This document shows, piece after piece, positions 14,901-60,800 of a DNA stretch of 64,000 nt (position 1 is the stretch's first letter; each line of letters opens with the position of its first letter). The notes under the pieces were generated by a model that saw only the letters and a program-made list of their open reading frames with translations, was not told the origin of the DNA and did no database searches. Both the position numbers and the translations under genes were made by a program. The DNA is from Gigantopelta aegis (Eukaryota; Mollusca; Gastropoda; Neomphalida; Peltospiridae): NCBI RefSeq assembly GCF_016097555.1, contig NC_054704.1, forward strand, positions 32,283,054 to 32,347,053. Direction: 5' to 3'.

Positions 14901-17900
14901 ACTTTTTTCATGTGCAAATCATGGATGGTAATCTTACAAGTAAATTAAAAGAATATTTACCACACATCGGTAAGTATAATCCCCCAAAACACTCTATGGT
15001 CTAAATACTGTCTTCTTTGCTTGGGCCAGTAGCCGATGTATTTTTCTTGCTGGGTTATTGCAGTGTGCAACAAATGTTGAGAAAGTCTCTAGTCTTCACA
15101 GAAGCTTTGGTTAGTGTCCTGTACATTATAGTTATACAGTTGATTATTTGCAGTAGCCCAGGTAAACAATTCAGTTGTTAGTGGATTTGTTGAACCCTGG
15201 TTATTGTTAAATAATTTTTCAAATTTATTCCTTGGATTTGGTGAGTTGAGTAGTTTCTGGTTCAGATGTCATCTGTGTAACCAGTTTAACTTGTTTGTCC
15301 AACAGATATCTTTTAATCATTTAAATTTTTGACCGGCCTCGGTGGCGTCGTGGCAGGCCATCGGTCTACAGGCTGGTAGGTACTGGGTTCGGATCCCAGT
15401 CGAGGCATGGGATTTTTAATTCAGATTCCGACTCCAAACCCTGAGTGAGTGCTCCGCAAGGCTCAGTGGGTAGGTGTAAACCACTTGCACTGACCAGTGA
15501 TCCATAACTGGTTCAACAAAGGCCATGGTTTGTGCTATCCTGCCTGTGGGAAGCGCAAATAAAAGATCCCTTGCTGCCTGTCGTAAAAGAGTAGCCTATG
15601 TGGCGACAGCGGGTTTCCTCTCCAAATCTGTGTGGTCCTTAACCATATGTCTGACGCCATATAACCGTAAATAAAATGTGTTGAGTGCGTCGTTAAATAA
15701 AACACTTCTTTCTTTCATTTAAAATTTACACACATGAGTGTAATAATTTCTTTATTATCCATATTATTAGTTATTTTTTTATGAATAACTAGGATCGTCT
15801 CAAAATGTTTCAACCACAATAGTCTTATTCAACTTACTGTGCTAGCACAACAAATATGCTATTCAACCTGAGTCATACCTACACACTGCAGAATTCTCTC
15901 CCTTGCCGGATATGCGCAATGCTATCCTTGCACGGGTTACCTGTAACTACATTCTCAATTCTGCAGTCCACCTGTTAACACCTGTTTAAGCTTTGGCAAA
16001 AAGTTTTCTTTTGGTCCTGACGGTACGCGTAGGATCCAGACAGTCATTGCGGCTCAACACGTCGTGTCTGTGCGCAGGGCAGCGGAAAGGGGTCGACCTC
16101 TTTTTCCGTCCGACTGCCATCGTTTCACACTTTGGACATGTTTAACACTCCACCCTTTTCTGAGGCATGGGTTTTTTTGTAGTGTTGTCTACCATTTCCT
16201 CTCCCTGGGGAGATGTTTTTCCTCCCTTTCATGGGGATGAGTTTTTGTTTTGGGAAGCCCCTTTTTATTCCCAAAAGTTTTGTTTTTGACGCCTTGTTAC
16301 TGTATGTCGTGGTTCGTCCTATCTCCATGTCATTACTTCAAAGGAGCTTTTTGGGTACGGGTAAGTCCTCTATTTTCTTACCTCTTCCCATTAATGTTGA
16401 ATTCACGTGCTCTAACGGTGTCATTGCACGTCCGTTATAGCATATTTGTTGTGCTAGCACAGTAAGTTGAATAAGACTATTAGAAAATTTGTTTCTAATT
16501 TTCATTATTTTTCATACTTACCTAGTGCTAGGACAACAAACTATACCTCCCACCCACCCCTATGAGGCTTTCCCTTGGTGGGTTTGGGTTGATTTTGAAC
16601 CGAGAATAAAGTTACAGGTAGCCCGTGCAAGAATAGCATTGCGCATATCCGGCAAGGGAGAGAATTCTGCAGTGTGTAGGTATGACTCAGGTTGAATAGC
16701 ATATTTGTGGTGCTAGCACTAGGTAAGTATGAATAATAATGAAAATTAAAAACAAATTTTCTAATTATAAAGAGACTATGAGTAAAGACTGGTGAAGCAA
16801 CATCATGATATGATGCCGCTTGCCAAAATGATTTCATTACACTTGTTATTACACATGTGCTTCATATGATTTTTGACCGGCCTCGGTGGCGTCGTGGCAG
16901 GCCATCGGTCTACAGGCTGGTAGGTACTGGGTTCGGATCCCAGTCGAGGCATGGGATTTTTAATCGAGATACCGACTCCAAACCCTGAGTGAGTGCTCCG
17001 CAAGGCTCAATGGGTAGGTGTAAACCACTTGCACCGACCAGTGATCCATAACTGGTTCAACAAAGGCCATGGTTTGTGCTATCCTGCCTGTGGGAAGCGC
17101 AAATAAAAGATCCCTTGCTGCCTGTCGTAAAAAGAGTAGCCTATGTGGCGACAGCGGGTTTCCTCTAAAAAAAAACAGTGTCAGAATGACCATATGTTTG
17201 ACGTCCAATAGCCGATGATAAGATAAAAAATCAATGTGCTCTAGTGGCGTCGTTAAATAAAACAAACTTTACTCATATGATTTTTGTTAACTCCGTTATG
17301 TTGAACCATGTGGATAATAATGTAGTAAATTTCGCACTTTGACATGCTATTTTTACAACTTTGACATTTCTAGGCAAATCCCTTTGTACTAGTTCCAGTT
17401 AGAAAAGAAAACATATTCTGGTTAATTGACATAGTTTTGTTTATTGCAGGACACATTCAGATTTCCCAGGTTCCCGACAGAGGGGAGCCTGATGATGGGG
17501 GAGAGATTAACTACCGCTACATCTTCAAATTGCTGGAAGACTTGCACTATGATGGCTACATTGGCCTTGAGTACAAACCTAGAGGTTTGTCGGTTATACA
17601 AAAATAGTCATTTTATTATTTTTATTTATTTAAAAAAAGAAGGTTTTTGCTTCTTTATTGTCCTTACTTGGTCGAAACAATAAACCCTCTAATTTAATGA
17701 AGTTATTGTATTGCTCTTGGCTATAGTGGCAGAGTCTGGCTAAATGCCATCTATTAAACATGATCTCACCCTTGTCAAGTAAATCTGATGTGAGAGCATA
17801 TAATTGTAGTAGTTGTAATACAGTCAAATCCACTTAATTGGATGTCGGATTATTGAATATTTCGGATATTTGAATATGTTTGTCCTGCACGGAACCATTT

Positions 17901-20532: not shown

Positions 20533-23329
20533 TCATTCTTCACCACTACTCTCTGTTTTATCCTCATTTATGTGGGACAGTGCGCCATCATAAAATGCAT
20601 GGACTTCTTCAGATGCACCTATTTCTTTAAGAAGTGCCAGTACATCTCGTTTCTTGGCTGCCGTAACTGTTGACTCCATCGGAAGTGAGGCCGGTTTGAA
20701 GTCTGCCCATTTTTTGCCCCTTTTCAGTACGCTGTGATAGCAGTACTCACCACTGTATGATGGTTTGAAACCAACTTTGTCATTGTTTAGTTGGAGCATG
20801 CGGGCCTCACTTATTTTGAAAGTTTTTTGCACTTTCAAGCATGCTTGAGTAGCAGAGCGGTAATCAAAAGACTGCCAGTCTTCTCCATAAACATAGACAT
20901 TCCCAAATGTCTTCAGGATACAGTAATACTGATCTGGTAGTAAGATAGTATCTAATTTGCGAACACTCTGTTCGATTCTCCCAAAGACACGGTCCGCAGG
21001 CAAGAAGCTGTGCCCCCTGATGGGGAATGTGAATTCAATGTTTAGACCAGGAAAAGCTATTCGAAGTGCCAAGAGCATGGACACTATATTCATGTTTTTA
21101 TTTTGTCCAAAACAAGAATCGCTATAAAGGCGAAGTTGCTTCCGTGTATTAAGTGTTTCACGTATTGGACCATTGAGTTGGTGTCGGAAACAGTGGTTCA
21201 GGGCAGATGCTATCATATTACTATCCTTTTTATTGTGATGTTCTAACCAAGCATAAAGATGAACATCATCTTTATTCTGTCTACTATCCTTTCCATGGTG
21301 CACGACAACTCCGAATAGGTATAGGTAGAGTTGCCTGGAGTAGTAGGCCTGTCCTATTGGTGTTTTGGGCAATACTAGATTTTGCATCATGTCAAAACAA
21401 ACTGTTACTGTGCCTTCATCAACTCTCCCTAGTAGGTCATAAAATACACGAGCTCGTCGCCGGTGCAAAATGAAAGCAGCCGTCTCATTCTGCTTTTCAA
21501 TTTCAGTCATGTTGGGATCTGTAATCTTCATCTTGTACTTGGTACATATTGAACAGGCATCCGTGGCTGGATGTCCAAAACCCAGATTGAATTTGGCAGA
21601 GAAGATAGAGTAATAAAGTGAATAACTAACTTGGGCATGGTTTTGAGCCTCAAAGAGTTGATGCATTTTATTCACACTTAAGTCACTCGGTAGATATTTC
21701 TGCCCAGGGGCTCCCCTGCGTCCATAATGGCTGGCTCTGCATGTAAAAGTTCTTATATGCTGAACTATTAGTTCCCTCCTCCTGTCATTTTCTGCTACAT
21801 TTCGGGCACCACCTCTTCTCTCGGGACGTGCATCAGCTGTCCTAGCATAGTAACGAGCCACTCGTGAAACTCGGTCCTTGCTGATTCCTGAAATGACAAG
21901 AACCATAAAGGGTCAGAATCTTGTTCATTGGTTAAAGCGTCCAGCCAAAGGTGCGTGGGGTTGTAGGATCTGTGCTTTTTAGTGGACCTGCTAGAACTGT
22001 TGGGCCTTTTCAGTTCCAACCAGTGGTCCACGACTGGTACACCAAAGGCTGTGGTATGTGCTATCCTGTTTGCATATAAACGATCCCTTACTGCTAATCG
22101 AAAAACAGTAGCCTGTATGGCGGACCATGTGTCGAAATAACCAGATGTTTGACATTCAATAGCCGACGATTAATTAATCGATGTGTTTCAGTGGTGTCGT
22201 TAAACAAATCAACTTTAATAAAATGTTTACACCTTAATTATAATTCGAGTCAGCCATTACTCGATATTAAAATGACGCAAGAATAGGCGACGTGGGATAT
22301 TTCTGGATGAAAATGACCTCATATTTCAACAACATCATTTGCGATGCCTATACACTACATGACACTAGTTCTAACGCGTTTATTTTCAGAATGTTGAACA
22401 ACTTACAATCTAAAATTGCTATTGAAATGTTTTTGTTTTATAACTATGAATGCATCCGTAAATTCTAGAATGTTGCTGATAGAATTAAACGGGCGTGTTT
22501 ATTTCTTTACCACTACGTTTTGTTGTGTCAATAATCATAGGCTGTTATGTGATAAATTATGATACCATCTAAAGTATTTTATTCAGCATTCTAACAGTGG
22601 CGTAACTGAGTTTATTTTTGGGGGGGCCAAAGGGGGGCAAGACCTTCGTCGGGGGGGGGGGGGGGGGGGGGGGGGCTGCTATATGCTACTGCAGTTTTTC
22701 CGTCATATTTATTGTGTACAATCAAATGTCAAATGGGGGGCCATGTGTGGGGGGGCCCCCAGGCCCCCCCCCAGTTACGTCACTGCATTCTAACAAACTA
22801 ATGTTACTTGGGGTCATGAAAAATGTAACGCTGGAAAGTTACGTGTGATAGGAATGTGACCATTAGAGATTAAACGAGGGTCGTGCAAGGGTTGAAGGAA
22901 AATAGTTTTGAAATAAAGACAATAATACTCACCTAGTACTTTGATAAAAGTATCTTTACAAACAGGCAGTTTCTCTGGGTGGCTCTCAGTCAGCAGACTA
23001 TATTTTACTGTGACATTCTGGTCTTTTCTGCGGTCTTCCGCATCGACCGTTTTGCGTCTCCGTTTCGCCTTGGTTATTGTCATCAATTGCACCAACGTCC
23101 TGTCCTGATCAGTTTTGTTTGGTGTTTCGTAAAATTTGTTAAAGTTCAACGCAAGATCGCTGTTTGTTAGCTTATTAGCATGGCAAAAGTGAGAGTTCAG
23201 TTCAGCAGTGTGTTTACACTCAAAATTAGGGAACGTTCCCCCACCAGAATGTCGCATTTTCTTCTTTTTCTCACGAAAATGTCCATCCTTATTTAACTTA
23301 CATTTTCTACCTCCTGCAGAAACCATCAC
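20533..23329 (-). CDS. DDE-type transposase-derived protein (DUF7869-like family), two exons, intact frame
   Basis: Exon 1 (23329-22933) ends at a GTGAGT donor and exon 2 (21887-20533) starts after a CAG acceptor. They join in phase to 583 codons without interruption. The N-terminal third is basic (KKKKMRHSGG, then AKRRRKT). It is followed by CKDTFIKVLGISKDRV and ERRGGARN, a short helical region typical of this family, and a zinc-binding-like CSIC near residues 244-247. The C-terminal half looks like an RNase-H-fold integrase core: FD at ~298, YSDSCFGQNKN with Asp at ~389, and GHSFLPADRVFGRIE with Asp ~431 and Glu ~438. Such proteins are common, multi-copy and mostly undescribed in invertebrates. 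The open frame suggests recent activity or domestication. The family name is from memory of its motifs; the DDE assignment is inference. The intron holds a SINE and an hAT-type MITE. Confidence 0.75.
21925..22215 (+). repeat. Diverged SINE with tail 2
   Basis: A degraded head (TTGGTTAAAGCGTCCAGCCA), the body (CAGTGGTCCACGACTGGTAC) and tail 2 (TTTGACATTCAATAGCCGAC) lie in the intron of the transposase-derived gene. Confidence 0.7.
22595..22785. mobile_element. hAT-type MITE with long G runs
   Basis: Inverted ends CAGTGGCGTAACTGAG and CCAGTTACGTCACTG, with 8-bp duplications CATTCTAA at 22587-22594 and 22786-22793. The centre contains a G run of about 25 and other G tracts. It lies in the intron of the transposase-derived gene. 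Confidence 0.85.
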
Positions 23330-23504: not shown

Positions 23505-24185
23505 CCATGCCACATGCATTCATTAAATTCGTGTTCATCTTGGTGCAGTACCCATAGAGCTGAAAGTTGGTATCTGCTGCCGCTCAATGTGCGTGGGTGT
23601 TTCTGTTGGATCCACTCCAGACATTGTATGGACGATCGACTGAAGTGGTCCCTCTGTACATATCCAGAACTCGGCACTTGGGCGATCAGGCTTGGAAACT
23701 TCTTGTCTTTGAACTCGGCCATCTTTTCGGAACATGTTCAAGTGACTTTCATACGTGAACAGCACCTTTTCCCAATCACGCCACTGCCACCAACGTACAG
23801 TTCGTGCCCATTGTAATCTGCGTTGACAGTGTAGAGGGGTCAAGGCCATTCTACGGAAGGGGCGGAAAGCTCTGATACCAGCCCTGCGTAGTCTTCGTAA
23901 GACTGTTCGTCTGCTGATGGGGTGTCCCAGTGCCGTTGATATCGCCGTCACGAATCGGTTCCGCAGGTGGATTGTCCAGATGTAGGGGTCTTCAGCTGGC
24001 ATTGTGACCCTTGGTCTTCCTGATCTTGCACGGTCTTGTGCCTGGCCTGTCTGCTGATAACAGCTCAACAAGTTACTGATGGCGGCTTGACTGCAGTTGA
24101 AGGTTCTTGCAATCTATCATTGAGAGGGCCCCATATCGGCCATACCGATAGCTCTGTTGCGTTCTGCTTGGGTAAGTCTCGGCAT
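23505..24185 (-). pseudogene. Tc1-like transposase remnant
   Basis: Minus-strand reading starts MPRLTQAERNRAIGMADMG at 24185. It meets two adjacent in-frame stops near 24110-24120, then continues with IARTFNCSQAAISNLL, a helix-turn-helix, and the GRPRV linker. The second helix-turn-helix is recognisable by HPISRRTVLRRLRRAGIRA. The first part of the catalytic core follows, with KVLFTYESHLNMFRKDGRV where the family has FTDES, so the first catalytic Asp appears to be Tyr. Downstream the frame breaks and the C-terminal half is missing. It is a dead plain DNA transposon, just upstream of the transposase-derived gene. Confidence 0.8.
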
Positions 24186-32814: not shown

Positions 32815-33183
32815 CTTTTTTTTTTTTAATCTGTTCATACCACGATGAACATACTTATTTCTTTCTTTTTAATATAACATGATGTCATCAGATATGTTCC
32901 CTGATGACATTTTCATATTTAACAAAATTGTGTTGCTATGACTAGTCCAATGGGATGCTTTTAAATTTCTATTTTTATCACAGGCATTGAATACTTTTAC
33001 CGTTACAGGTCTGTTTATTTTATCAAGATCTTTTGTTAACTTACAGTGTAATAAACATAAACTCATCTAATGTTGTTGTTTGTTTTAGCTATATTATTAT
33101 AGTAGCCTAAATGGTGCATCACAACAAATTATATATTTTTCCACTTGTGTGCAGCATGTAATATAAAAGTATCAAATAGAAAT

Positions 33184-34240
33184 GTTTATTTAAAGAATAT
33201 TAAGTTATTAAACAGGTTAGTTATGACATATAGACAGAAAATATCTATTTAAAGAATATTAAGTGTCAAACAGGTTAGTTATGACATATAGACAGAAAAT
33301 ATCTATTTAAAGAATATTAAGTTATTAAACAGGTTAGTTATGACATATAGACAGAAAATATCTATTTAAAGAATATTAAGTTATTAAACAGGTTAGTTAT
33401 GACATATAGACAGAAAATATCTATTTAAAGAATATTAAGTGTCAAACAGGTTAGTTATGACATATAGACAGAAAATATCTATTTAAAGAATATTAAGTTA
33501 TGAAACAGGTTAGTTATGACATATAGACAGAAAATATCTATTTAAAGAATATTAAGTGTCAAACAGGTTAGTTATGACATATAGACAGAAAATATCTATT
33601 TAAAGAATATTAAGTGTCAAACAGGTTAGTTATGACATATAGACAGAAAATATCTATTTAAAGAATATTAAGTTATTAAACAGGTTAGTTATGACATATA
33701 GACAGAAAATATCTATTTAAAGAATATTAAGTGTCAAACAGGTTAGTTATGACATATAGACAGAAAATATCTATTTAAAGAATATTAAGTTATTAAACAG
33801 GTTAGTTATGACATAGACAGAAAATATCTATTTAAAGAATATTAAGTTATTAAACAGGTTAGTTATGACATATAGACAGAAAATATCTATTTAAAGAATA
33901 TTAAGTTATTAAACAGGTTAGTTATTACATATAGACAGAAAATATCTATTTAAAGAATATTAAGTGTCAAACAGGTTAGTTATGACATATAGACAGAAAA
34001 TATCTATTTAAAGAATATTAAGTGTCAAACAGGTTAGTTATGACATATAGACAGAAAATATCTATTTAAAGAATATTAAGTTATGAAACAGGTTAGTTAT
34101 GACATATAGACAGAAAATATCTATTTAAAGAATATTAAGTGTCAAACAGGTTAGTTATGACATATAGACAGAAAATATCTATTTAAAGAATATTAAGTAT
34201 CAAACAGGTTAGTTATGACATATAGACAGAAAATATCTGC
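33184..34240. repeat. Minisatellite, 57-59 bp unit, about 18 copies
   Basis: The unit contains AAACAGGTTAGTTATGACAT, ATAGACAGAAAATATCTATT and TAAAGAATATTAAGT. Two unit variants, ending GTTATT or GTGTC, are interspersed in an irregular order. It lies in the intergenic region between the transposon graveyard and PPIE. Confidence 0.95.
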
Positions 34241-40145: not shown

Positions 40146-43100
40146 TTATAAGTGATAAAATATTAATTTGTTTTTAATGCTATTAATTGTTCTAATAGGT
40201 AACATGGATAGTTTTTTTAACTTAGGTGGTATTATTGGAAACAAATATTTTTAAATATTAATAAGTAACTTTATTCTAAACTGATGACAATTGTTTGCAT
40301 GTTTTTCTAAACATACCATAAAATATGCACAATGAGCATGTTGTGTTATGTGTAAATTGACAAATTGATTTAACATAATCTTAGTATGCAAAATGTATAT
40401 TAAAAAGTTAGTTATTTCAATTTAATGGGGTTTTGTGTTTTATAAACAGTTAAAATTGGGCAAGTGAATTTTTCACCATGACCAGTAAATTTTCAAATCC
40501 ACTGGTCCTATGGCAAGTGAATTAAAAAAAAAAAAAAAAATCTAGAACACCATGTACATGGAACGCTTGTAACAGTTGGATATCGCTTATTCCTGCACTG
40601 ACCAATCACATTCAAGGATAGAAATGTGAGTCATACTTGTTCCAATCTTGGGCCAACAATTTCACCAACTATATGCATTACTAGTGGACTACATTGCACA
40701 CTTGTGGGGTAACCGACTCCGGCCCATAGAGCCCCCTCTCCCCCCCCCCCCCCCCCCCCCCCGTTACTGAGTGTCTGTAGCTCTTGATAGCCCCCCTCCC
40801 CCAACTCCTACTCCGACAGTTCCAACGCCTTCTAGTACTTCATTTTGCAACCACTGATGTCCTGTTTAAACAAATATTTTAGTTAAAAGACACCTTTACT
40901 GCTTATGCGGCTATAGATTATTTTTACATTTAAGGCCAGGCAAACCAGTATTCGCTTTTGGTTAAGCTCGCTAAGATCACTGGTTGAATGGGGAGACTAT
41001 CCAAATAGAAATATATCAAAACACTTTAGGGTTAGATTAGATATGAAGTGACAATGTCTCTGGTCAGATTGCAATAACATTGTCAAGATGAAAGTCAACA
41101 CGGACACACACAATAATTACCAGTTTAATTAAAGGTTACCAACATACCAGTCTGTTTTCTCTGTAGTAAACATGGACACACACAATAATTACCAGTTTAA
41201 TTAAAGATTACCAACATACCAGTCTGTTTTCTCTGTAGTAAGGAAAAACTGTGATCCATTCGTGTTGGGCCCTGAATTTGCCATGGATAAAGTACCTGAA
41301 AAACAACAACATGAAAGACTTAAACTTCTAACAAAAATCCCCAAAAAGGAAAAAAAAGGAAATCACAATGTTCATTTTCTATATCATAATGGATGTAATT
41401 CCAAGTCTTTCGTATATGTAAGAACTTTATATTTTAATGCATTTAATGTCGATAAATAATTACATCACCTCAAAGTTTTAAAAATCTAATAATCACTATG
41501 ACTGAAAGTAGTTTATTGAATTTCTGAGACTAATTAATGCTTTGAAATCATTCTTGATACTTTTCGGCATAAAGTCAATTACACATTTAATGAAGAAAAA
41601 AAATAATAATTACCTGGTGATGTATGTTTCAGGACAAAGTTTTCATCTTCAAACTTTTTTCCATATATGGATTTTCCTCCAGTACCATTATGATTTGTAA
41701 AATCTCCTCCTTGACACATCTATGCACTGTTAAGGTTTACAAGGAATCAAATAGACATATATTATGAACATTAAACAGTTGTGGTGCTTTGCCAGAACTG
41801 TACACTGCAATAAATGTATTGCCTACATCAACAAGGATGAGCATAAACTTATGTACTACACATAAAAGATATAAAAATTAGTTCAATACATTTTCGTGAA
41901 TAAAATAGTAATATTAAAAAATATTGTCCCTCAAATTTGTGTTAAAAGATTACGATTAGTTAAAACATCCAGAAAGAAACTAGTCACCCTAAGGTATGAC
42001 TTTAGTTGAAAGAGTTACCATTAAAGAAACTAGTCACCCTAAGGTATGACTTTAGTTGAAAGAGTTACCATTAAAAAAAGTCAAAATTTCATAAATGACT
42101 TTTACAAGTATAATGTTACTATCTTCTTTTATATCTTGTATAAGCATATTAAACAATGTTTGGACTGGTAGTAGTAACATGGTACACTAGATTAAAGGAT
42201 ACAAAAGAGGGAATAATTCTGTGGAATGTGCTGCCCTTGTAGCCAAAGCCTTTCTCGTGAGTACACAAACATCGGAAATTTTCTAAGGAAAAAAGAAACA
42301 TATTTGAAGTATTACATCAGATACTCTTGTAATATATTTGTCAAGATACATATCTTTTGTAAAACACAGACAATTATGAATTATTATATGGACAACCATT
42401 GCTTGTGATATCTCTTTACAGTGACCAAATGACGAAAAAGATAAATATTTTTTAAAACCCACTTGAAGGAAAGAATGTTTTATTTAACAACACACACACA
42501 ACACATTTTAATTACGGTTATATGTCATCAGAACCACATAAATATAAGAAACTGTTCATAATACTATCTACTAAAATTTGCATACATTTAAATAAAGTAT
42601 ATTTAATGGGATCATTATAAAAGCATCGCTGACTTCATAGTCAATTGTTTTTAAGAGGACAAGCAAGACTGATAGATATTTCATCAAAAACTTATTTCTC
42701 TAACTAACCAATTTTGTTCTGTGCCCTTATTAGTAATGACACAAAGATAATTATCAATCTGAGTAAAGAAGCACTTATGTAAATTGCTTTAACAATATCA
42801 AAAGTACTTCTACAACAATAATTAACAACCAGCTGTAGTACTGAAAACATGCATTATAAATAGAGATAACAAATGTAGTAAAAGAATGCAGCAAACAATA
42901 TAACAATAATATGATGTTAATTTAAACCTGCAGTTTTCGGTACGACGTCTGCCTTCAGTTCAATGACTATTCTCCCTGTCTGACGACCACCAATCGTAAT
43001 ATCAAAATACACCTGAGGATTTTCACGTGATTTCTTTACTACAGGCTGTGATGACTGAAATAAATAAAACAGACTGATCATAAACAGGCCATCTTTGAGC

Positions 43101-46100
43101 TAAAGTTCAAATTTCTACATCTTTTGTATGACAAAAACAAGCAAACTCGTAATATTTTAACAAATTTTATAAAATAAAAAGAAACTATTTTCTAAACTGG
43201 CATCTCTGAGGATTAAATTTGTAATAACAAATTGGTAGTTAGTAAATAAAAAATAATTAAATATAGTATTGTGTAAACTGACACATTCTTTGGTCCCCAC
43301 ATTTCCAGTTCTTTATGATGCTAAAAGAAAACCATGATATCTATAGAGGCAGTGTATGGATTTATATGTATTTCCATATCTAAAGTCATTGTTTCACTCT
43401 TACTATAAATCAAAGTAACAAGAAATGCAGGACTAGCTCTGGCACTTGCCAAATTCGCAAATATTGTAAATTTTAAACACAATTGGCAAATTTTATTTTA
43501 ATTTGGTGAAAACATTTCATGTAATAATTGATATTTTGTTCAAAATAATGGTGGGTTTGTTCAATTTTTAGCATTTAATAGATAATTAGGCAAATTGTTT
43601 TACACACCCAGAGCTAGCCCTGAAATGAGTTTTTTGTACAGAGTCTGATATAAAACCAACATGGAGTGAACCACATTTCACCTCATCTGTTTCTTCAGCT
43701 GATCTTTTAGTGCCTTGTTCCCCATCCCCATCTCCTCCTTCTTCTTCTTCTTCTGTGTCCTTGTTGTTGAGTGTTTCACCGGCATGCTTCTGTAACCACG
43801 AGTCCTCAGCCCACACTGTTCAATACAGAAAAAATCCCACACTGATCAATACAGAAAAAACCCCACACTGATCAATACAGAATAAAACCACACTGATCAA
43901 TACAGAAAAAATCCCACACTGATCAATACAGAAAAAAACCCACACTGATCAATACAGAAAAAAACCCACACTGATCAATACAGAATAAAACCACACTGAT
44001 CAATACAGAAAAAAACCACACTGATCAATACAGAAAAAAACACACTGATCAATACAGAATAAAACCACACTGATCAATACAGAAAAAACCACAATGATCA
44101 ATACAGAATAAAACCACACTGATCAATACAGAAAAAAACCCACACTGATCAATACAGAATAAAACCACACTGATCAATACAGAATAAAACCAAACTGATC
44201 AATACAGAATATAACCACATTGATCAATACAGAAAAAAAAACACTGATCAATACAGAATAAAACCACACTGATCAATACAGAAAACCCCCCACACTGATC
44301 AATACAGAAAACCCCCCACACTGATCAATACAGAATAAAACCACACTGATCAATACAGAAAAAACCACACTGATCAATACAGAATAAAACCACACTGATC
44401 AATACAGAATAAAACCAAACTGATCAATACAGAATATAACCACACTGATCAATACAGAAAAAAAACACTGATCAATACAGAATAAAACCACACTGATCAA
44501 TACAGAAAACCCCCCACACTGATCAATACAGAATAAAACCACTCTGATCAACGTAGAATAAAACCACACAGATCAACGTAGAATAAAACCACACTGATCA
44601 ATCCAGAATAAAACCATATTGTTCAATACAGAATAAAACCACACTGATCAACACAAAATAAAACCACATTGATCAATACAGAATAAAACCACACTGATCA
44701 ATGTAGAATAAAACCACACTGATCAATACAGAATGAAACCACACTGATCAATACAGAGTAAAACCATACTGTTCAAAACAGAATAAAACCACACTGATCA
44801 ATACAGAATAAAACCACACTGATCAATACAGAATAAAACCATATTGTTCAGTACAGAATAAAACCACACTGATCAATACAGAATAAAACCACATTGATCA
44901 ATACAGAATAAAACCACACTGATCAATACAGAATAAAACCACATTGATCAATACAGAATAAAAACACACTGATCAACACATAATAAAACCACATTGATCA
45001 ATACAGAATAAAACCACACTGATCAACACAGAATAAAACCACACTGATCAACACAGAATAAAACCAAACTGATCAATCCTGAATAAAACCACACTGATCA
45101 ACGTAGAATAAAACCACACTGATCAACACAGAATAAAACCACATTGATCAATACAGAATAAAACCATATTGATCAATACAGAATAAAACCACACTGATCA
45201 ATACAGAATAAAACCACACTGATCAATACAGAATAAAACCATATTGATCAATACAGAATAAAACCACACTGTTCAACACAGAATAAAACCAGACTGATCA
45301 ACACAGAATAAAACCATACTGATCAATACAAAATAAAACTACCACTACAGTACATGACATAACAATTATTTGTTTGTGTTTAACAACACCACTAGAGCAC
45401 ATTGATTAATTAATCATCGGCTATTGGATGTCAAACATTTGGTAATTTTGACAAATAATTAAAGAGGAAACCTGCTACAGTTTCCCATTAGTAGCAAGGG
45501 ATATTTTACATGCACCATCCCACAGACAGGATAGCACATATCATGGCTGACACAACAATGAAGGAGGAGGAAATGTTTTATTTACTGATGCAATCAACAC
45601 ATTTTATTTACGGTTATATGGGATCGAATATATGGTAAAGGACCACACAGATACTGCGAGAGGAAATCTGCTGTCACTACTTCATGGGCTACTCTTTTCG
45701 ATTAGCAGCAAGGGATCTTTTATATGCACCATTCCACAGACAGGATAGTACATACCACGGCCTTTGTTACACCAGTTGTAGAGCACTGGCTGGAACGAGA
45801 AATAGCCCAATGGGTCCATCTACTGGGATTGATCCTAGACTGACTGTGCATCAAGCAAACGCTTTACAAGTTGCCTATGTCCCACCCTGACACAACAATG
45901 AAGTCATCCAACAATCTTTTTCTGAAGCAAAATGTGTGCCGCTCTATGACATATGTAATTACCCTGGCTGAACCCACCAGTACAAGGTTATGGACCCAGC
46001 TACTTACGGGCCTAAATAACCGATTCAACAAACTACTCTTAAACTTTACTTTGGTTACCCAGGCGATATGTGAAACATGCTATAAATCTTGTAGCTTGCC

Positions 46101-49100
46101 ATCTATGCCTAGGTGACTATACTGAAGGTTTGCACTCTGTAAATCCACCTTTAAATACAAGACCTTTGAGTTCATTATGACTTTAAACAGAACACAGGGC
46201 TCATTTTGCCACTTTAAGTTTAAATAACTTTAAGAAAAAATTTGACAAATGTTATTTTAATTTGGAGGAAAAAAATTATATATTGATTGATATTTTGTTG
46301 GAAAATAACTATAGGTTTTAAATTTTTTATACAATTTGGTGAAATATTCTGATCACCCAAAGCTAGCCTTGGAATATATATGGTCCTGTCGTGTAACAAT
46401 TGTAACATGTCTAATACAAATCTTTTTCAACCTGTAATAATATGCAGGGCTTCTAGAATTTTGTTTAAATCCACTAGCCATGGGATCAGTGATTTTAAAA
46501 ATTTACTAGCCCTACTCTAAGTTAATACAATTTTACTAAATAATAGTTACTGTAATAATCAGATATGTCACCTAAAGAGGGAGATAGAGCTTAAAAACAC
46601 TAACATTGGGGGTTTGGGGAGAGGGAAGGATATTCAGATTTACAAAATAGACTTAACTGCAACATTTGACAAATGGTTTTCACTAGCCATCAGGCATAGC
46701 AATAGTAGTTATTTACTAGCTCAACATTGAATATCACTAGCCATGGGAGTGGGGCTACCATAATCTAGAAGCTCTGAATATGCATAAATCATTACACAAA
46801 AGTCAATATAAGAATGTCCCACATATCACTAAACAAAGCGATCACAAAGTTTTACAAAGGTAACAAGATATTATTGTTAATGCTTATCGAACCTGCTCTT
46901 GATGCTCCTTCCTTCATTTTCATGGGTTTAGCTAAATTCACACGAATAGTCCTTCCAAAAAGTTCAGAGTCATTCTGAAATAATTAAAAGGAAAAATGTG
47001 AACCAATAAATGAATGAATGTTTAACGACAGATCAGCCAAACAAAGGTAAGTATATCAATATGATTATTTAGGAAAAATGTCTACCTTTGAATAAAAAAG
47101 TTTTAAATCTTAGAAAATTATACAGCTGGTTTGTATCTCATAAAAAGAACAATAAATCCAATAAAAATCCAAGGCAGAATGAGCTATCTGAACCTAACTC
47201 TGTGTTAGTTATAGGTAACACTATAAAGGTTCCTACCATATTGTCAATAGCTGCAGCTGCATCCTGTAAAAAAACAAAAGAAAGTGTTTGAAAAATATCA
47301 CATTGAAACAAATTTAAGCAGGATCAGTTACAGGGCTGACACTGGGTCAAATATCGGTTTATCCAATTTTCAGATATGTAGAGTATTTCCTTAAAGGGAC
47401 ATTCCTGAGTTTGCTGCAATTTTAAAGATGTTATTGACTAACGGAGACTTTTTAACGATTATAATTACGTATCAAATATATTTTTCTGCATAAATATTAG
47501 TAGCTGTATATTAAACGTGTTTCTGATCGTTCTAATATTAAACGTGTTTCTGATTGTTCTAATATTTGTACTAGGTTAAATTTCATTTTATTTCCTAAAA
47601 TATTATTTTTTCGTATGTACGAAATTATTTGAAGACAAAATCCAGTTTGGGCTTCTTTCAAATATTAAGACGACCAGAAACATATTGAATATACAGACAC
47701 TGATATTCTAAACAAGAAAATATATTTAATATGTAAGTTTAATCGTAGAACTATTTTATTAGTCGGAAACATCTTACAATGCAGCAAACTCAGGAATGTC
47801 CCTTTAAAAGTTAATAAAATGTGGTTAATTTATGAAGTATTTTAACCAAAGACTGAATATTATAGCTACTTTATATAAAAAATAGCAACTGGCTAATTTG
47901 GCAATGGACAGGGTGAGCTAAAAGTTTTTTTTTAACAATTTGTAATGCCAACCTAAATAAAATAATAAAAAGTTTGTACATCTAAAAAAAAAATCCAATA
48001 CTATAAGTTAGCACAAAAATTTATCTTACCTCAGCCAATTCAAACTCAATAAATGCAAAGCCTCTGTGTTTTTCTGTAAAACATCAGATACAAATATTTC
48101 ACTATAATCACCATATAATAATTAATTACTCATCATAATTATTAGTAGCTTAATTTTATAACTCAAATAAAATACCCAAAGTAATGAATCCAGTTATGTA
48201 AAGTATAGACAAGCTTAGAATGAAACAGGAGCCTAACTACATGATATACATATCTAACACAATTCTTATTCAGTTCATTCCATTACAAAATAGAATAAGG
48301 CTCGTTACATGCTTTAGAAGCATCCCGAAGAAACTAGTAACATGCACTATCAATTATATATAGTGCAGTAGAAAGATTACATTTATTGTTACTAGTCTTA
48401 ATCTCATAGTTTAAACAATTTACTGCACCGTACACTTCACATTTTACAACAGGCATAGCCTATGTGAAGGCTTCTCTGTACAATATATAGTATTTTAAAA
48501 TAGATTTTATAATATGTTTAAACAAAAAGGAAGATTTTCTGCATCCACCCCTGATTTGCCATCTCTAATACCTGTTTCATAATCCAGTGGAATGTTTATA
48601 TCAACCAATTCTCCAAATGGGATAAAAGCTTCTTGAATAATCTTGTCATCAACTTCCTCAGCTAGGCCACCTGAAAAAAAAAGTAAATGACATAATAAAA
48701 TTTATATTTCTTGTTTTAATGGTGTATTACCAAACAGTGTTCATCCTGGATCAAAAATACATGTAGCCAAAACATTAGCCAAATGAGATTTTTATTAGTC
48801 ATAACAAAAATGTTTTAGCCAACGAGATCGCTATTATGCTAATTGAATATTTTGTATTATTACTATTATGTCTGTGGTGTCGCATAGTAATCTATCCGAC
48901 ACCCGCTTGTTCACATCAGAAGACAGAAAATGGCGTAGCAAAACTTTTAGAAATGACTTCACCGATCCTTTTCCTCATACAAGACTAATCAAAGTTTTAT
49001 TTTCCTCCAATACGGGCAGATAACAATAACCATGTGTTTTAAAAAACCCCACACAGTCAGACTTTTTTTCTTTAATTCAAAGTGAAGATCGTTTCAAAGT

Positions 49101-50994: not shown

Positions 50995-51130
50995 TAGCTC
51001 AGTTGAGTACTTGCCAGAGGTGCATGAAGTCAAGCCCTCAATGGACTCTGGTTCTTTTCCCCATCCACAAAGACAATGGTATGTACTGTTCTGTCTATGA
51101 GAAAGTACATATAAAAGATCTTGTTGCTTT
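50995..51130 (+). repeat. SINE head 1 and body, continuous with the following minisatellite
   Basis: The head contains GGAACATAGCTCAGTTGAGT and the body AATGGTATGTACTGTTCTGT, then GTACATATAAAAGATCTTGT. At this point the copy merges into the 52-bp tandem array and has no ordinary tail. Confidence 0.75.
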
Positions 51131-52925
51131 ACCCCAAGGAGTAGCCTGTGATGGCAGGAGGTAACCATGTTCTTGATGCTTCACCCCAAGGAGTAGCCTG
51201 TCATGGCAGGAGGTAACCATGTTCTTGTTGCTTTACCCCAAGGAGTAGCCTGTGATGGCAGGAGGTAACCATGTTCTTGATGCTTCACCCCAAGGAGTAG
51301 CATGTGATGGCAGCAGGTAACCATGTTCTTGTTGCTTTACCCCAAGGAGTAGCCTGTGATGGCAGCAGGTAACCATGTTCTTGTTGCTTTACTCCAAGGA
51401 GTAGCCTGTGATGGCAGCAGGTAACCATGTTCTTGTTGCTTTACCCCAAGGAGTAGCCTGTGATGGCAGTAGGTAACCATGTTCTTGTTGCTTTACCCCA
51501 AGGAGTAGCCTGTGATGGCAGGAGGTAACCATGTTCTTGTTGCTTTACCCCAGGGAGTAGCCTGTGATGGCAGGAGGTAACCATGTTCTTGTTGCTTTAG
51601 CCCAGGGAGTAGCCTGTGATGGCAGCAGGTAACCATGTTCTTGTTGCTTTACCCCAAGGAGTAGCCTGTCATGGCAGGAGGTAACCATGTTCTTGTTGCT
51701 TTACCCCAAGGAGTAGCCTGTGATGGCAGGAGGTAACCATGTTCTTGTTGCTTTACCCCAAGGAGTAGCCTGTGATGGCAGCAGGTAACCATGTTCTTGT
51801 TGCTTTACCCCAAGGAGTAGCCTGTGATGGCAGCAGGTAACCATGTTCTTGTTGCTTTACCCCAAGGAGTAGCCTGTGATGGCAGCAGGTAACCATGTTC
51901 TTGTTGCTTTACCCCAAGGAGTAGCCTGTGATGGCAGCAGGTAACCATGTTCTTGTTGCTTTACCCCAAGGAGTAGCCTGTGATGGCAGTAGGTAACCAT
52001 GTTCTTGTTGCTTTACCCCAAGGAGTAGCCTGTGATGGCAGCAGGTAACCATGTTCTTGTTGCTTTACCCCAAGGAGTAGCCTGTGATGGCAGCAGGTAA
52101 CCATGTTCTTGTTGCTTTACCCAAGGAGTAGCCTGTGATGGCAGCAGGTAACCATGTTCTTGTTGCTTTACCCCAAGGAGTAGCCTGTGATGGCAGCAGG
52201 TAACCATGTTCTTGTTGCTTTACCCCAAGGAGTAGCCTGTGATGGCAGCAGGTAACCATGTTCTTGCTTTACCCCAAGGAGTAGCTGTGATGGCAGCAGG
52301 TAACCATGTTCTTGTTGCTTTAAGGAGTAGCCTGTGATGGCAGCAGGTAACCATGTTCTTGTTGCTTTACCCCAAGGAGTAGCCTGTGATGGCAGCAGGT
52401 AACCATGTTCTTGTTGCTTTACCCCAAGGAGTAGCCTGTGATGGCAGCAGGTAACCATGTTCTTGTTGCTTTACCCCAAGGAGTAGCCTGTGATGGCAGC
52501 AGGTAACCCTTGTTGCTTTACCCCAAGGAGTAGCCTGTGATGGCAGCAGGTAACCATGTTCTTGATGCTTCACCCCAAGGAGTAGCATGTGATGGCAGCA
52601 GGTAACCATGATCTTGTTGCTTTACCCCAAGGAGTAGCCTGTGATGGCAGCAGGTAACCATGATCTTGTTGCTTTACCCCAAGGAGTAGCCTGTGATGGC
52701 AGCAGGTAACCATGTTCTTGTTGCTTTACCCCAAGGAGTAGCCTGTGATGGCAGGAGGTAACCATGTTCTTGTTGCTTTACCCCAAGGAGTAGCCTGTGA
52801 TGGCAGCAGGTAACCATGATCTTGTTGCTTTACCCCAAGGAGTAGCCTGTGATGGCAGCAGGTGACCATGTTCTTGTTGCTTTACCCCAAGGAGTAGCCT
52901 ATGATGGCAGCAGGTAACCATGTTA
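51106..52925. repeat. Minisatellite, 52-bp unit, about 35 copies, derived from a SINE body
   Basis: The unit is TTGTTGCTTTACCCCAAGGA, GTAGCCTGTGATGGCAGCAG and GTAACCATGTTC. It corresponds to the SINE segment CCTTGCTGCTAATCGAAAAG, AGTAGCCTATGTGGCGACAG and CGGGTTTCC. Most units are nearly identical. A few lack 3-5 bp, and first-position variants (GGAGG, GTAGG, GCAGG) alternate. Confidence 0.93.
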
Positions 52926-57837: not shown

Positions 57838-60800
57838 CTAGTCAATGCTGAATCTGGGAGTCACAATCCGCTTGACTTTTTCAAGCAAAATATGCATGTT
57901 CTGCTTATAGAGCCTCTCGTTGCTGAGATCCACGTAGCTCTGTCGCGTGAGGATTCGCCGGACCTGACTTGGGGCACTCTCAATTGGCACGAATCTCAGC
58001 AGCAGAGGGATGATAGGTTTGTTCAGAGCATCTGCCAGTGTCAGGTCCTTGACACAGTTGTCACTTTGGAGGTACTTGGGAGTGATGCAGCACAAGACGA
58101 CCGCCGATAACTTCATGTGTCGCTGTATCTGGCCTTGAAGAGTTTCGGAACCGTTGTCGAGATTGCTGAACGTTCCGCTGGAACGGGTAGATCGGGAGCT
58201 GTGACCGCGGGGAGCTTGACTCATGGAAATATCGGCCCAGCATACCAAGCCGGTGGCTTCTAGGACTAGTCGGATTTCCTCCACTTTGGACTGCATGTCC
58301 CACTGATAGCTGATGAATACTTGTGGGTCTTCTTCCGACGTCTCCAGTCCGCCTTAAATAATTAACAAGTCAAAATATAGAAGTTAGAGTTAAATGGTTC
58401 ACTGTAAAAGTTATGAGAGTATGGTTCACAAATGGATGGATTTAACGAACAACGACTATTAAATGATAATAAAGGTTTTTATATACTCCTAGAGAATGTT
58501 TAAAAAAAAAAAAAAATGGCATATTTACTGTCTGGTTAAAGGTCATCTGAACAAATACATTTTGTATTTTTGAATTTTTTTCACCAATGTTAGATTCTAC
58601 CCATTCCAGACTTGCAACCAAGGTACACTCCACCTCAACCATGACACTATACTAACAGTGGCAAGAGCATGAAGTGCAATGTTTTAGAAGTACGGGTAGC
58701 AAGTTTCTTCTTTAATATTCTAAAACAATTACAAAATATTTGACACCTGAAAAATGCCAAGTAAACAATGTTCTGAGGTGCCATCAAAGAATTTCTTTTA
58801 TTTGCTGCTAATAACACAATGTTCAATGCAAAATAGACTTCAGATAAGCACAAAAGTATTTACCGGTAGCCGTTTTATTTCCCAATAATATACCGTATTT
58901 ACTATTTCATCTGTGAAACTATGTAACATCAACAAAAACAAATACAAAAGAAATAAAACAAAGTCAATCTTTAAATGTTTTTATAATATAGCAAACTAAT
59001 TAATATTGTTTAAAAACACTTAGTCATAACTTAATGACTAAAATGCATCTATTTGTGTTTAGTTTTAAACAAAACTATATAATGAAAAGCAAATACATAT
59101 AAAAATGTAACACTATGGTAGAGCAAAATATATTTTGCTGGCAAATTCCACGCAAGCAACATATATTCTATCTGTTGACAAAGAAAAAGACATTTTAAAA
59201 ATGAATCAAATGATAACAAAATGTTTAATTTATACAAGAATTCCCTACCCCAACAAACAAAACAAAACAATTTGTTAATAACCATCAACACAATAATGAT
59301 AAGACGTGTTGGTAAAAAATACATGTATAAGCATTTTCTAACCCACCTGTGTCATCCATGTATGAAAATGTGAGCAGAAACAATTAAATAGTTTTGATAA
59401 GAATATGGAATAAATTAAAAAAATTAATAACTATACTTATATCACTGATAATCAAAGTTCCCAGTATTAGACTGCTTTAATAATATACAAGTCTGTATAG
59501 AGCACTATTATTTGCATTATAAGAAGGTGAAGTATTTAGCCTTGGCATAGCATCTGGCCCTAAGGTACAAAAACATTTAAATCTGTAACTTTACAACTAC
59601 TACATTAAAAACCATGGTATGTGCTGTCCAGTCTTGGCACTAATTAAAAAATAATATCTTATGTAGTGTTATGTTTGGACTCTGGACTAAGTGTCACAAA
59701 ATTTACAGTCAATGACTGAGCAATATGTGTTCAATAAAAGTTCAATTAATTTCTAAGGATTTTTAAATGCCACTTAATGCTACACTGAAATTTAAATGCT
59801 TAAAATGTACGTCAAATAGAAGGATTTAAAATAACACAATAATATCTTTATACTGTTGTACAGTACAAAATGTTAAATTAGAAATAAAAATGTAGAAATG
59901 TTAAATTAATATGGTGAACATGCTTATTAAGGGTGCACCAGTAAAATGGATGGATATAAAATCATCTTTCTTTTACATCTCATTAATGGAATGTACTGCA
60001 TGCAAGCTGAAACCAGATTTTCTGCTTGTTTACTGACAGCATACAAACAGTAACATGCAAAGCAGGTATTTCTTATTTGTAAATATTATTATATATTCTA
60101 ATATAGTGAAACAAAGGTACATGCACATGCATACGGTATTTGACATATACAACTCTTGGTGGCAACATGCATATTTATATTAAGCAGACAGAATTATCTT
60201 GGATTAACAACTTACGAGTGCACAAACAGCTCCAGTACATGAAACTTAAAATTGCCTTTTTTTTCCACCATGATTTGTTTTTCAAAGCTAAGATGATCCA
60301 CTATAATATAAATCTATAAATCACCAAGTTGTGTACTAGAGCTATACTCCAAACCACATATTCCAGTTCTGTGAGACTTAATAACAATATGGGGCAGGGC
60401 GTAGCTCAGTGGTAAAGTGCCTGTTTGATGCATGGTTGGTTTGGGATGGATGCCCGTCGATAGGCCCATTAGACTATTTCTCATTCCAGCTAGTGTACAG
60501 TACCACGACTGGTATACCAAAGGCTGTGATATGTGCTATCCTGTCTGTGAGATGGTGCATATAAAATATTCCTTGCTACTAATAGAAAAATGTAGCAGGT
60601 TTCCTCTCTAAGACTATATGTTAAAATTACCAAATGCTTGACATCCAATAGCCAATGATTAATTAAGCAATGTGCTCCAGTGGTGTCATTAAACAAAACA
60701 AACTTTTTTAATAGCAATATGTGCTGGAGATATAATTAAACAAATATTCCTTTCATTTCCACCACCAAAGTTACTTCAGTTCTACCTCTTCACATGAACT

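Follow-up and report, generated by a model that had tools for sequence, protein, structure and literature searches.

The minus strand of the 64-kb stretch of DNA analyzed here (the window) carries a gene for PPIE (cyclophilin E; RRM plus PPIase) at positions 48670-38360, and intron 5 of this gene ends in a minisatellite whose last unit is the acceptor of exon 6. The array poses a testable question, namely how splicing still locates the right copy.

The PPIE gene and the array at the end of intron 5

We located the exons by tblastn, using a human PPIE sequence as query. Joined together, exons 2-12 formed one open frame, and all ten introns between them were GT-AG. The 303-aa product was homologous over its full length to known PPIE, aligning from residue 1 to 303 with residues 11-301 of the PDB chain 5mqf_o, which is named PPIE (E = 2.3e-149). 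Exon 1 was not found in the window with a simple pattern, and the exon numbers used here presuppose a single unseen exon 1. Intron 5 was 3077 nt long and the array made up about half of it (Table 1). Elsewhere in the gene, intron 8 (41720-42202) had the look of a U12-type (minor spliceosome) intron when set against the U12-type consensus, starting with GTATCCTTT and ending with CCTTAACAGTGCATAG. Rfam gave no matches within the 64-kb window.

Table 1. Positions in the window of the PPIE features and repeats discussed in the text
Feature	Position	Strand	Remarks
PPIE exon 5	46893..46974	-	donor CAG/GTTCGA (slash, exon border), intron from 46892
Interspersed repeat (SINE-like)	45369..45887	-	oriented like PPIE and lying close upstream of the array; relatives across the window; limits approximate
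25-bp minisatellite, 61 units	43810..45345	-	sense consensus TTTTATTCTGTATTGATCAGTGTGG; 3′ end of intron 5
Unit ends 1-32, distal	44544..45319	-	more diverged; every spacing 25 nt; AG lost in 10 units (12 in all)
Unit ends 33-60, exon-proximal	43842..44519	-	core more uniform; unit ends 23-26 nt apart
Branch-point-like TTGAT of unit 60	43845..43849	-	putative branch A at 43846, 30 nt ahead of the intron's final base; motif match only
Terminal unit, functional exon 6 acceptor	43810..43835	-	intron part 43816-43835, exon TGTGGG 43810-43815
PPIE exon 6	43682..43815	-	134 nt; first base is the second base of the Val codon in a conserved Val-Trp
Purine-rich (GAA)n tract in exon 6	43732..43753	-	enhancer-like; putative enhancer role
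Tandem duplication, 72 bp x 2.1	41093..41241	-	70/72 identical; includes the exon 10 donor and 22 nt of that exon

TRF reported a repeat of period 25 at 43811-45339, with 61 copies and 89% matches. Parsing of the transcribed strand likewise yielded 61 unit ends, each CAG or a variant of it, the final one being the exon 6 acceptor. The first-pass annotation had described a minisatellite of about 60 copies that adjoins exon 6 and has the functional acceptor as its terminal unit, and both descriptions were borne out by the unit parsing. A search of the window with the 20-bp core, allowing up to 3 mismatches, gave 58 matches between 43811 and 45333, each of them on the minus strand, and none in 100 shuffles. 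Unit-like sequence elsewhere in the 64-kb window did not rise above chance, the best score outside the array being 13.0 against a mean best score of 13.1 for 60 shuffled units.

The exon 6 acceptor reads TTTTTTCTGTATTGAACAG followed by exonic TGTGGGCTGAGG, with its AG at 43816-43817. Each unit comprises about 20 intron and 5-6 exon bases and thus spans the exon-intron boundary, as do the units of the "mirages" discussed below. Similarity to the unit reaches six bases (TGTGGG) into exon 6 and then ends. The first five of these (TGTGG, exon +1 to +5) recur in 45 of the 60 extra units, and all six in 9 of the 28 proximal but 0 of the 32 distal units, which mostly have TTTTATTCTG and not TTTTTTCTG. 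TGTGGG completes a Val codon, encodes Trp and opens the next codon. The Val-Trp pair, which fixes 4 of the 6 copied exon bases, recurs in both of the best-matching PDB entries, as RPVW in 5mqf and KPVW in 8ro0 (which we take to be human and worm, respectively).

Most units carry the signals of an acceptor

The earlier description of the unit as pyrimidine tract, AG and first exon bases holds for the 5-6 copied exon bases, but the AG was lost in 12 of the 60 extra units and kept in 48. TTGAT, which agrees with the branch-point motif yUnAy, was present in 56 of the 60 and lies 27-30 nt ahead of the next unit's end, so the units keep splice signals, a further feature of mirages. The AG four bases past TTGAT would be too near for use as an acceptor. 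The replacement of GAACAG by GATCAG noted in the first pass was accordingly the rule rather than universal, since four units (3, 20, 23 and 29) have GAACA. The native unit itself has TTGAA and lacks the branch-point-like motif, and the likeliest branch point for the native AG therefore lies in unit 60. Counting the motif in the preceding unit, 44 of the 48 AG decoys, as well as the native AG, are preceded by TTGAT. The dozens of acceptor-like sites claimed at first sight are thus real as motifs: 48 AG decoys, of which 44 follow a unit that holds a branch-point-like motif.

All acceptor scores given here were computed with one 3′ splice-site matrix. The native exon 6 acceptor scored 4.4, the lowest of the 10 U2-type PPIE acceptors; the U12-like exon 9 acceptor (-1.6, below the native site) was left out of this ranking. 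At least the native score was reached by 38 of the 48 AG decoys, that is, by 38 of the 60 extra units when each was scored as the first-pass annotation had proposed, and by 8% of 442 further AGs across the gene, those in exons among them. Because the native site is the lowest-scoring one, strength does not account for its preference. The predicted products of all 48 AG decoys were unproductive, through a frameshift or a stop, and for 47 of them a stop is predicted inside the insert or exon 6. Use of the unit 60 decoy would add 26 nt and shift the frame, with a predicted stop 443 nt before the last junction.

Origin of the array

The array is probably an acceptor-type mirage, made by tandem amplification of a junction-straddling segment of 25-26 bp. 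The sequence itself shows the adjacency of array and exon, the exon register, the unit structure, the lower divergence near the exon and the unproductive product predicted for each AG decoy. We propose that a 25-26-bp segment across the intron 5/exon 6 junction (about 20 plus 6 bases) was tandemly duplicated, and that the duplicated segment was then amplified to about 60 copies, the original acceptor staying in place as the terminal unit. Under this origin the acceptor would have read TTCTGTATTGA(A/T)CAG before exonic TGTGG prior to the formation of the array, and the branch point serving the native AG would now be in unit 60. No regulatory role is needed to explain the array.

Since Val-Trp coding is conserved, at least 4 of the six exon bases probably predate the array, and copying is likelier to have run from exon to array, as judged from protein conservation. 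The view of the first-pass annotation, that the real acceptor was tandemly amplified, is consequently favored by Val-Trp coding and exon register, while its direction stays a probable one. Against this stands the shortness of the copied exon part, as 5-6 bases would by simple arithmetic fall into register by chance about once in 1000 cases. Moreover, when a 1.5-kb segment is placed at random, one of its ends comes to lie no more than 10 bp from a PPIE exon border 8% of the time.

Likeness to the terminal unit increases toward the exon (Spearman rho 0.56, 60 units). A core mismatch of any kind was found in 24 of 32 distal units versus 6 of 28 proximal ones (Fisher p = 7e-5), although such proximal/distal p-values are a rough guide, because we set the boundary after unit 32 post hoc and the units share descent. 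The simplest reading of this gradient is that the amplification near the exon is newer. There was no sign that decoy AGs close to exon 6 had been selected against: the AG is missing from 10 of the 32 distal units but from 2 of the 28 proximal ones, the opposite trend. A DNA hairpin as the cause of expansion was set aside: each strand folded somewhat better than its shuffles (z = -2.6, 1/100), but both gave short stems only.

Tandem arrays are often misassembled, and the array could be real with a misassembled copy number. One amphioxus mirage was indeed wrongly assembled in the genome draft (PMC3087553). We regard this as unlikely here, as many units are individually distinct and the divergence shifts along the array. 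Somewhat less likely still is that an unrelated intronic minisatellite expanded as far as exon 6, where a unit of it took the place of the ancestral acceptor. The flank upstream of the array is repeat-rich, and any edge unit could have served, because adjacent units jointly hold a branch-point-like motif, a pyrimidine tract and an AG; however, capture of this kind is at odds with a register that runs 6 bases into protein-constrained exon sequence and with the chance-level similarity of the rest of the 64-kb window to the unit.

The array is not the only duplication across a PPIE splice junction. We scanned 22 exon borders, one of which is the end of the coding sequence, and scored duplication at the exon 6 acceptor (77) and the exon 10 donor (68); the others scored at most 6. 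Of 300 positions drawn at random from the gene, with the array excluded, 10 scored at least 20, 9 of them in the exon 10 donor duplication and 1 in an intron 8 duplication. From the decoy donor in the exon 10 duplication, read-through into a stop is predicted. Placed at random, a segment as long as this duplication takes in an exon border 22% of the time, so that the exon 10 duplication alone is unremarkable; it shows that a junction-spanning duplication process occurs in PPIE.

Comparison with known splice-site minisatellites

The array has the anatomy that defines the "mirage" minisatellites and hence belongs among them. In amphioxus, mirages are tandem duplications of exon-intron boundaries in globin genes, Adh3 and other loci, with splice signals in many of their units, length instability and undisturbed splicing, the Adh3 units being 10-72 bp long (PMC3087553). 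PGBD5 adds a further amphioxus mirage, and troponin C is cited as another (PMC3902484). Like the PPIE array, these have minisatellite-like units across the boundary, on the acceptor (BflGb6) or donor (BflGb9) side. Unlike them, as far as described, the PPIE array takes only 5-6 exon bases into each unit and sits in a spliceosomal gene, in a host that is probably not a cephalochordate. Its 61 units of 25 bp compare with units of 150-160 bp in BflGb6, of which one haplotype has 6 and the other 3. The edge units of BflGb6 escape homogenization, whereas in PPIE the near-exon units most resemble the edge unit. The PPIE array is a notable mirage for its copy number, its short unit and its complete acceptor modules.

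A minisatellite supplying multiple splice donors was reportedly found in a human interferon-induced gene (6-16/IFI6) by Turri et al. in 1995. It would share with the PPIE array the repetition of splice sites, but on the donor side. The VNTR in intron 18 of human ABCA7 has a 25-bp unit that begins at the splice site and is present 23.7 times in the reference; retaining a single unit breaks the reading frame, and the length of the VNTR is polymorphic and affects splicing (PMC5954066). Unit length, location at a splice site and out-of-frame retention of one unit are as in PPIE, but the ABCA7 array is on the donor side, the first two bases of its unit being the donor GT, and repeated exon bases, present in PPIE, go unmentioned in the accessible text (PMC5954066). 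In human segmental duplications, internal tandem repeats at exon-intron boundaries alter splicing, an effect described there as novel intron formation; compared with PPIE, the variable ones average 4 units of 30 bp and belong to recent paralogs (PMC2812944). CeRep25B of C. elegans, a 24-bp (nearly) palindromic intronic minisatellite tied to alternative splicing, differs in being a dispersed family that is not described, in the accessible text, as holding a splice site (PMC4039745). Two further reports, as far as accessible, were judged not to be precedents (PMC8912139, PMC7536079).

None of the literature matches listed described a splice-site minisatellite in PPIE, subscription journals being mostly outside the coverage, and PPIE was absent from the 10 of 118 matches listed for a query that included it. 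Together with the exon 10 duplication, the array suggests that junction-spanning duplications may be more frequent than the few amphioxus and human cases in these sources.

Proposed choice of the terminal unit in splicing

The array is a natural experiment on acceptor choice: it strings together dozens of nearly identical modules of branch-point motif, tract and AG, and many of these score at least as high as the acceptor required for full-length PPIE. It could gauge to what extent an acceptor is selected by nearness and exon definition alone. We suggest that splicing would mostly pick the terminal unit through exon definition, that is, through nearness to exon 6, the purine-rich tract and the donor, and that the products of decoy use would be removed by nonsense-mediated decay. 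Exon 6 contains 6 GARGAR motifs and the array 0.

Folding offers another explanation, which we think improbable: paired adjacent units might hide the decoy branch points and AGs, the terminal unit, with its GAACAG and without a downstream neighbor to pair with, staying more open. Two neighboring units can pair over 14 bp, G-U pairs included, in a hairpin that has the pyrimidine tract in its loop (UUUUAUU). Several tests were tried; in one of them the last 12 or 30 units were folded under 20 settings that are not independent. In 18 of the 20, the terminal AG was predicted to be more open than every AG decoy in the folded stretch, although its pyrimidine tract was less open than those of the decoys in all 20. 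Changing the native A to T lowered the predicted openness of the terminal AG in 15 of 15 settings that included the exon; without the exon the effect was reversed in 4 of 5 and mixed in the fifth. Within the 18-nt core, all 7 distinct transitions (37 of 37 instances) preserve pairing, with a chance of 0.10 for the 7, but all 12 distinct transversions disrupt it.

As controls for the fold we regard shuffled units and exon-included runs as fair, since single-base shuffles overstate significance because tandem copies multiply any unit effect. Six units folded better than 482 of 500 dinucleotide-shuffled units (18 were equal or better); with exon 6 included, however, the fold was not unusual (z = -1.45, 7 of 100 shuffles equally good), and the minimum-energy structure was not a plain ladder. 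Nor is the hairpin between units 60 and 61 other than ordinary, 17 of 59 other pairs being equally weak or weaker, and the internal GAACAG units 3 and 23 were predicted to be closed.

Alternatively, the length of the array might set the share of PPIE pre-mRNA that is lost to decoys, as a tunable dampener of PPIE or as a feedback on it, the latter raised as speculation in the first-pass annotation. The number of decoys that match or exceed the native site (38 of 48) and the predicted failure of every decoy product would suit such a role, and in ABCA7 skipping of the next exon grows with VNTR length (PMC5954066). The same source states that use of decoy donors (about 2%, one-unit retention) is independent of VNTR length, and published mirages are reported as leaving splicing undisturbed (PMC3087553, PMC3902484); we hold a regulatory role to be distinctly unlikely. 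Very improbable is the combination of both, in which array length and folding would together set the productive fraction of PPIE mRNA through 44 hairpin-masked decoy modules, a ladder that, if true, would tune the mRNA of a gene whose own product is spliceosomal.

Other repeats in the window

The SINE-like repeat upstream of the array does not include it: among the matches listed, the similarity of its relatives stops 25-30 bp before the array, and unit-like sequence above chance is absent from the rest of the window. The 3′ end of intron 6 (43063-43087) resembles one array unit (CTGTTTATGATCAGTCTGTTTTATT), with 22 matches in 26 alignment columns. This is the joint best similarity outside the array, yet at chance level window-wide; shuffled units matched its score in 61 of 3000 cases at any of 10 acceptors and in 22 of 3000 at the intron 6 acceptor.

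Two further minisatellites were noted, one of 58 bp x 18 at 33180-34238 (95% matches) and one of 52 bp x 35 at 51119-52924, upstream of PPIE exon 2. The plus-strand unit of the latter contains a donor-like CAGCAG/GTAACC, antisense to PPIE. tRNA-like sequences at 15336-15407 and 16880-16951 closely precede copies of the interspersed repeat (15494-15719 and 17038-17266) and are probably SINE heads. The interspersed repeats tentatively suggest a mollusc as host. On the minus strand, a reading frame at 57841-58353 has a TIR_2 domain (E = 1.2e-14), and the frames at 20536-21912, with DUF7869 (E = 1.3e-10), and 23538-24113, with a piece of a Tc3-type transposase (E = 4.7e-11), are possibly remnants of mobile elements.
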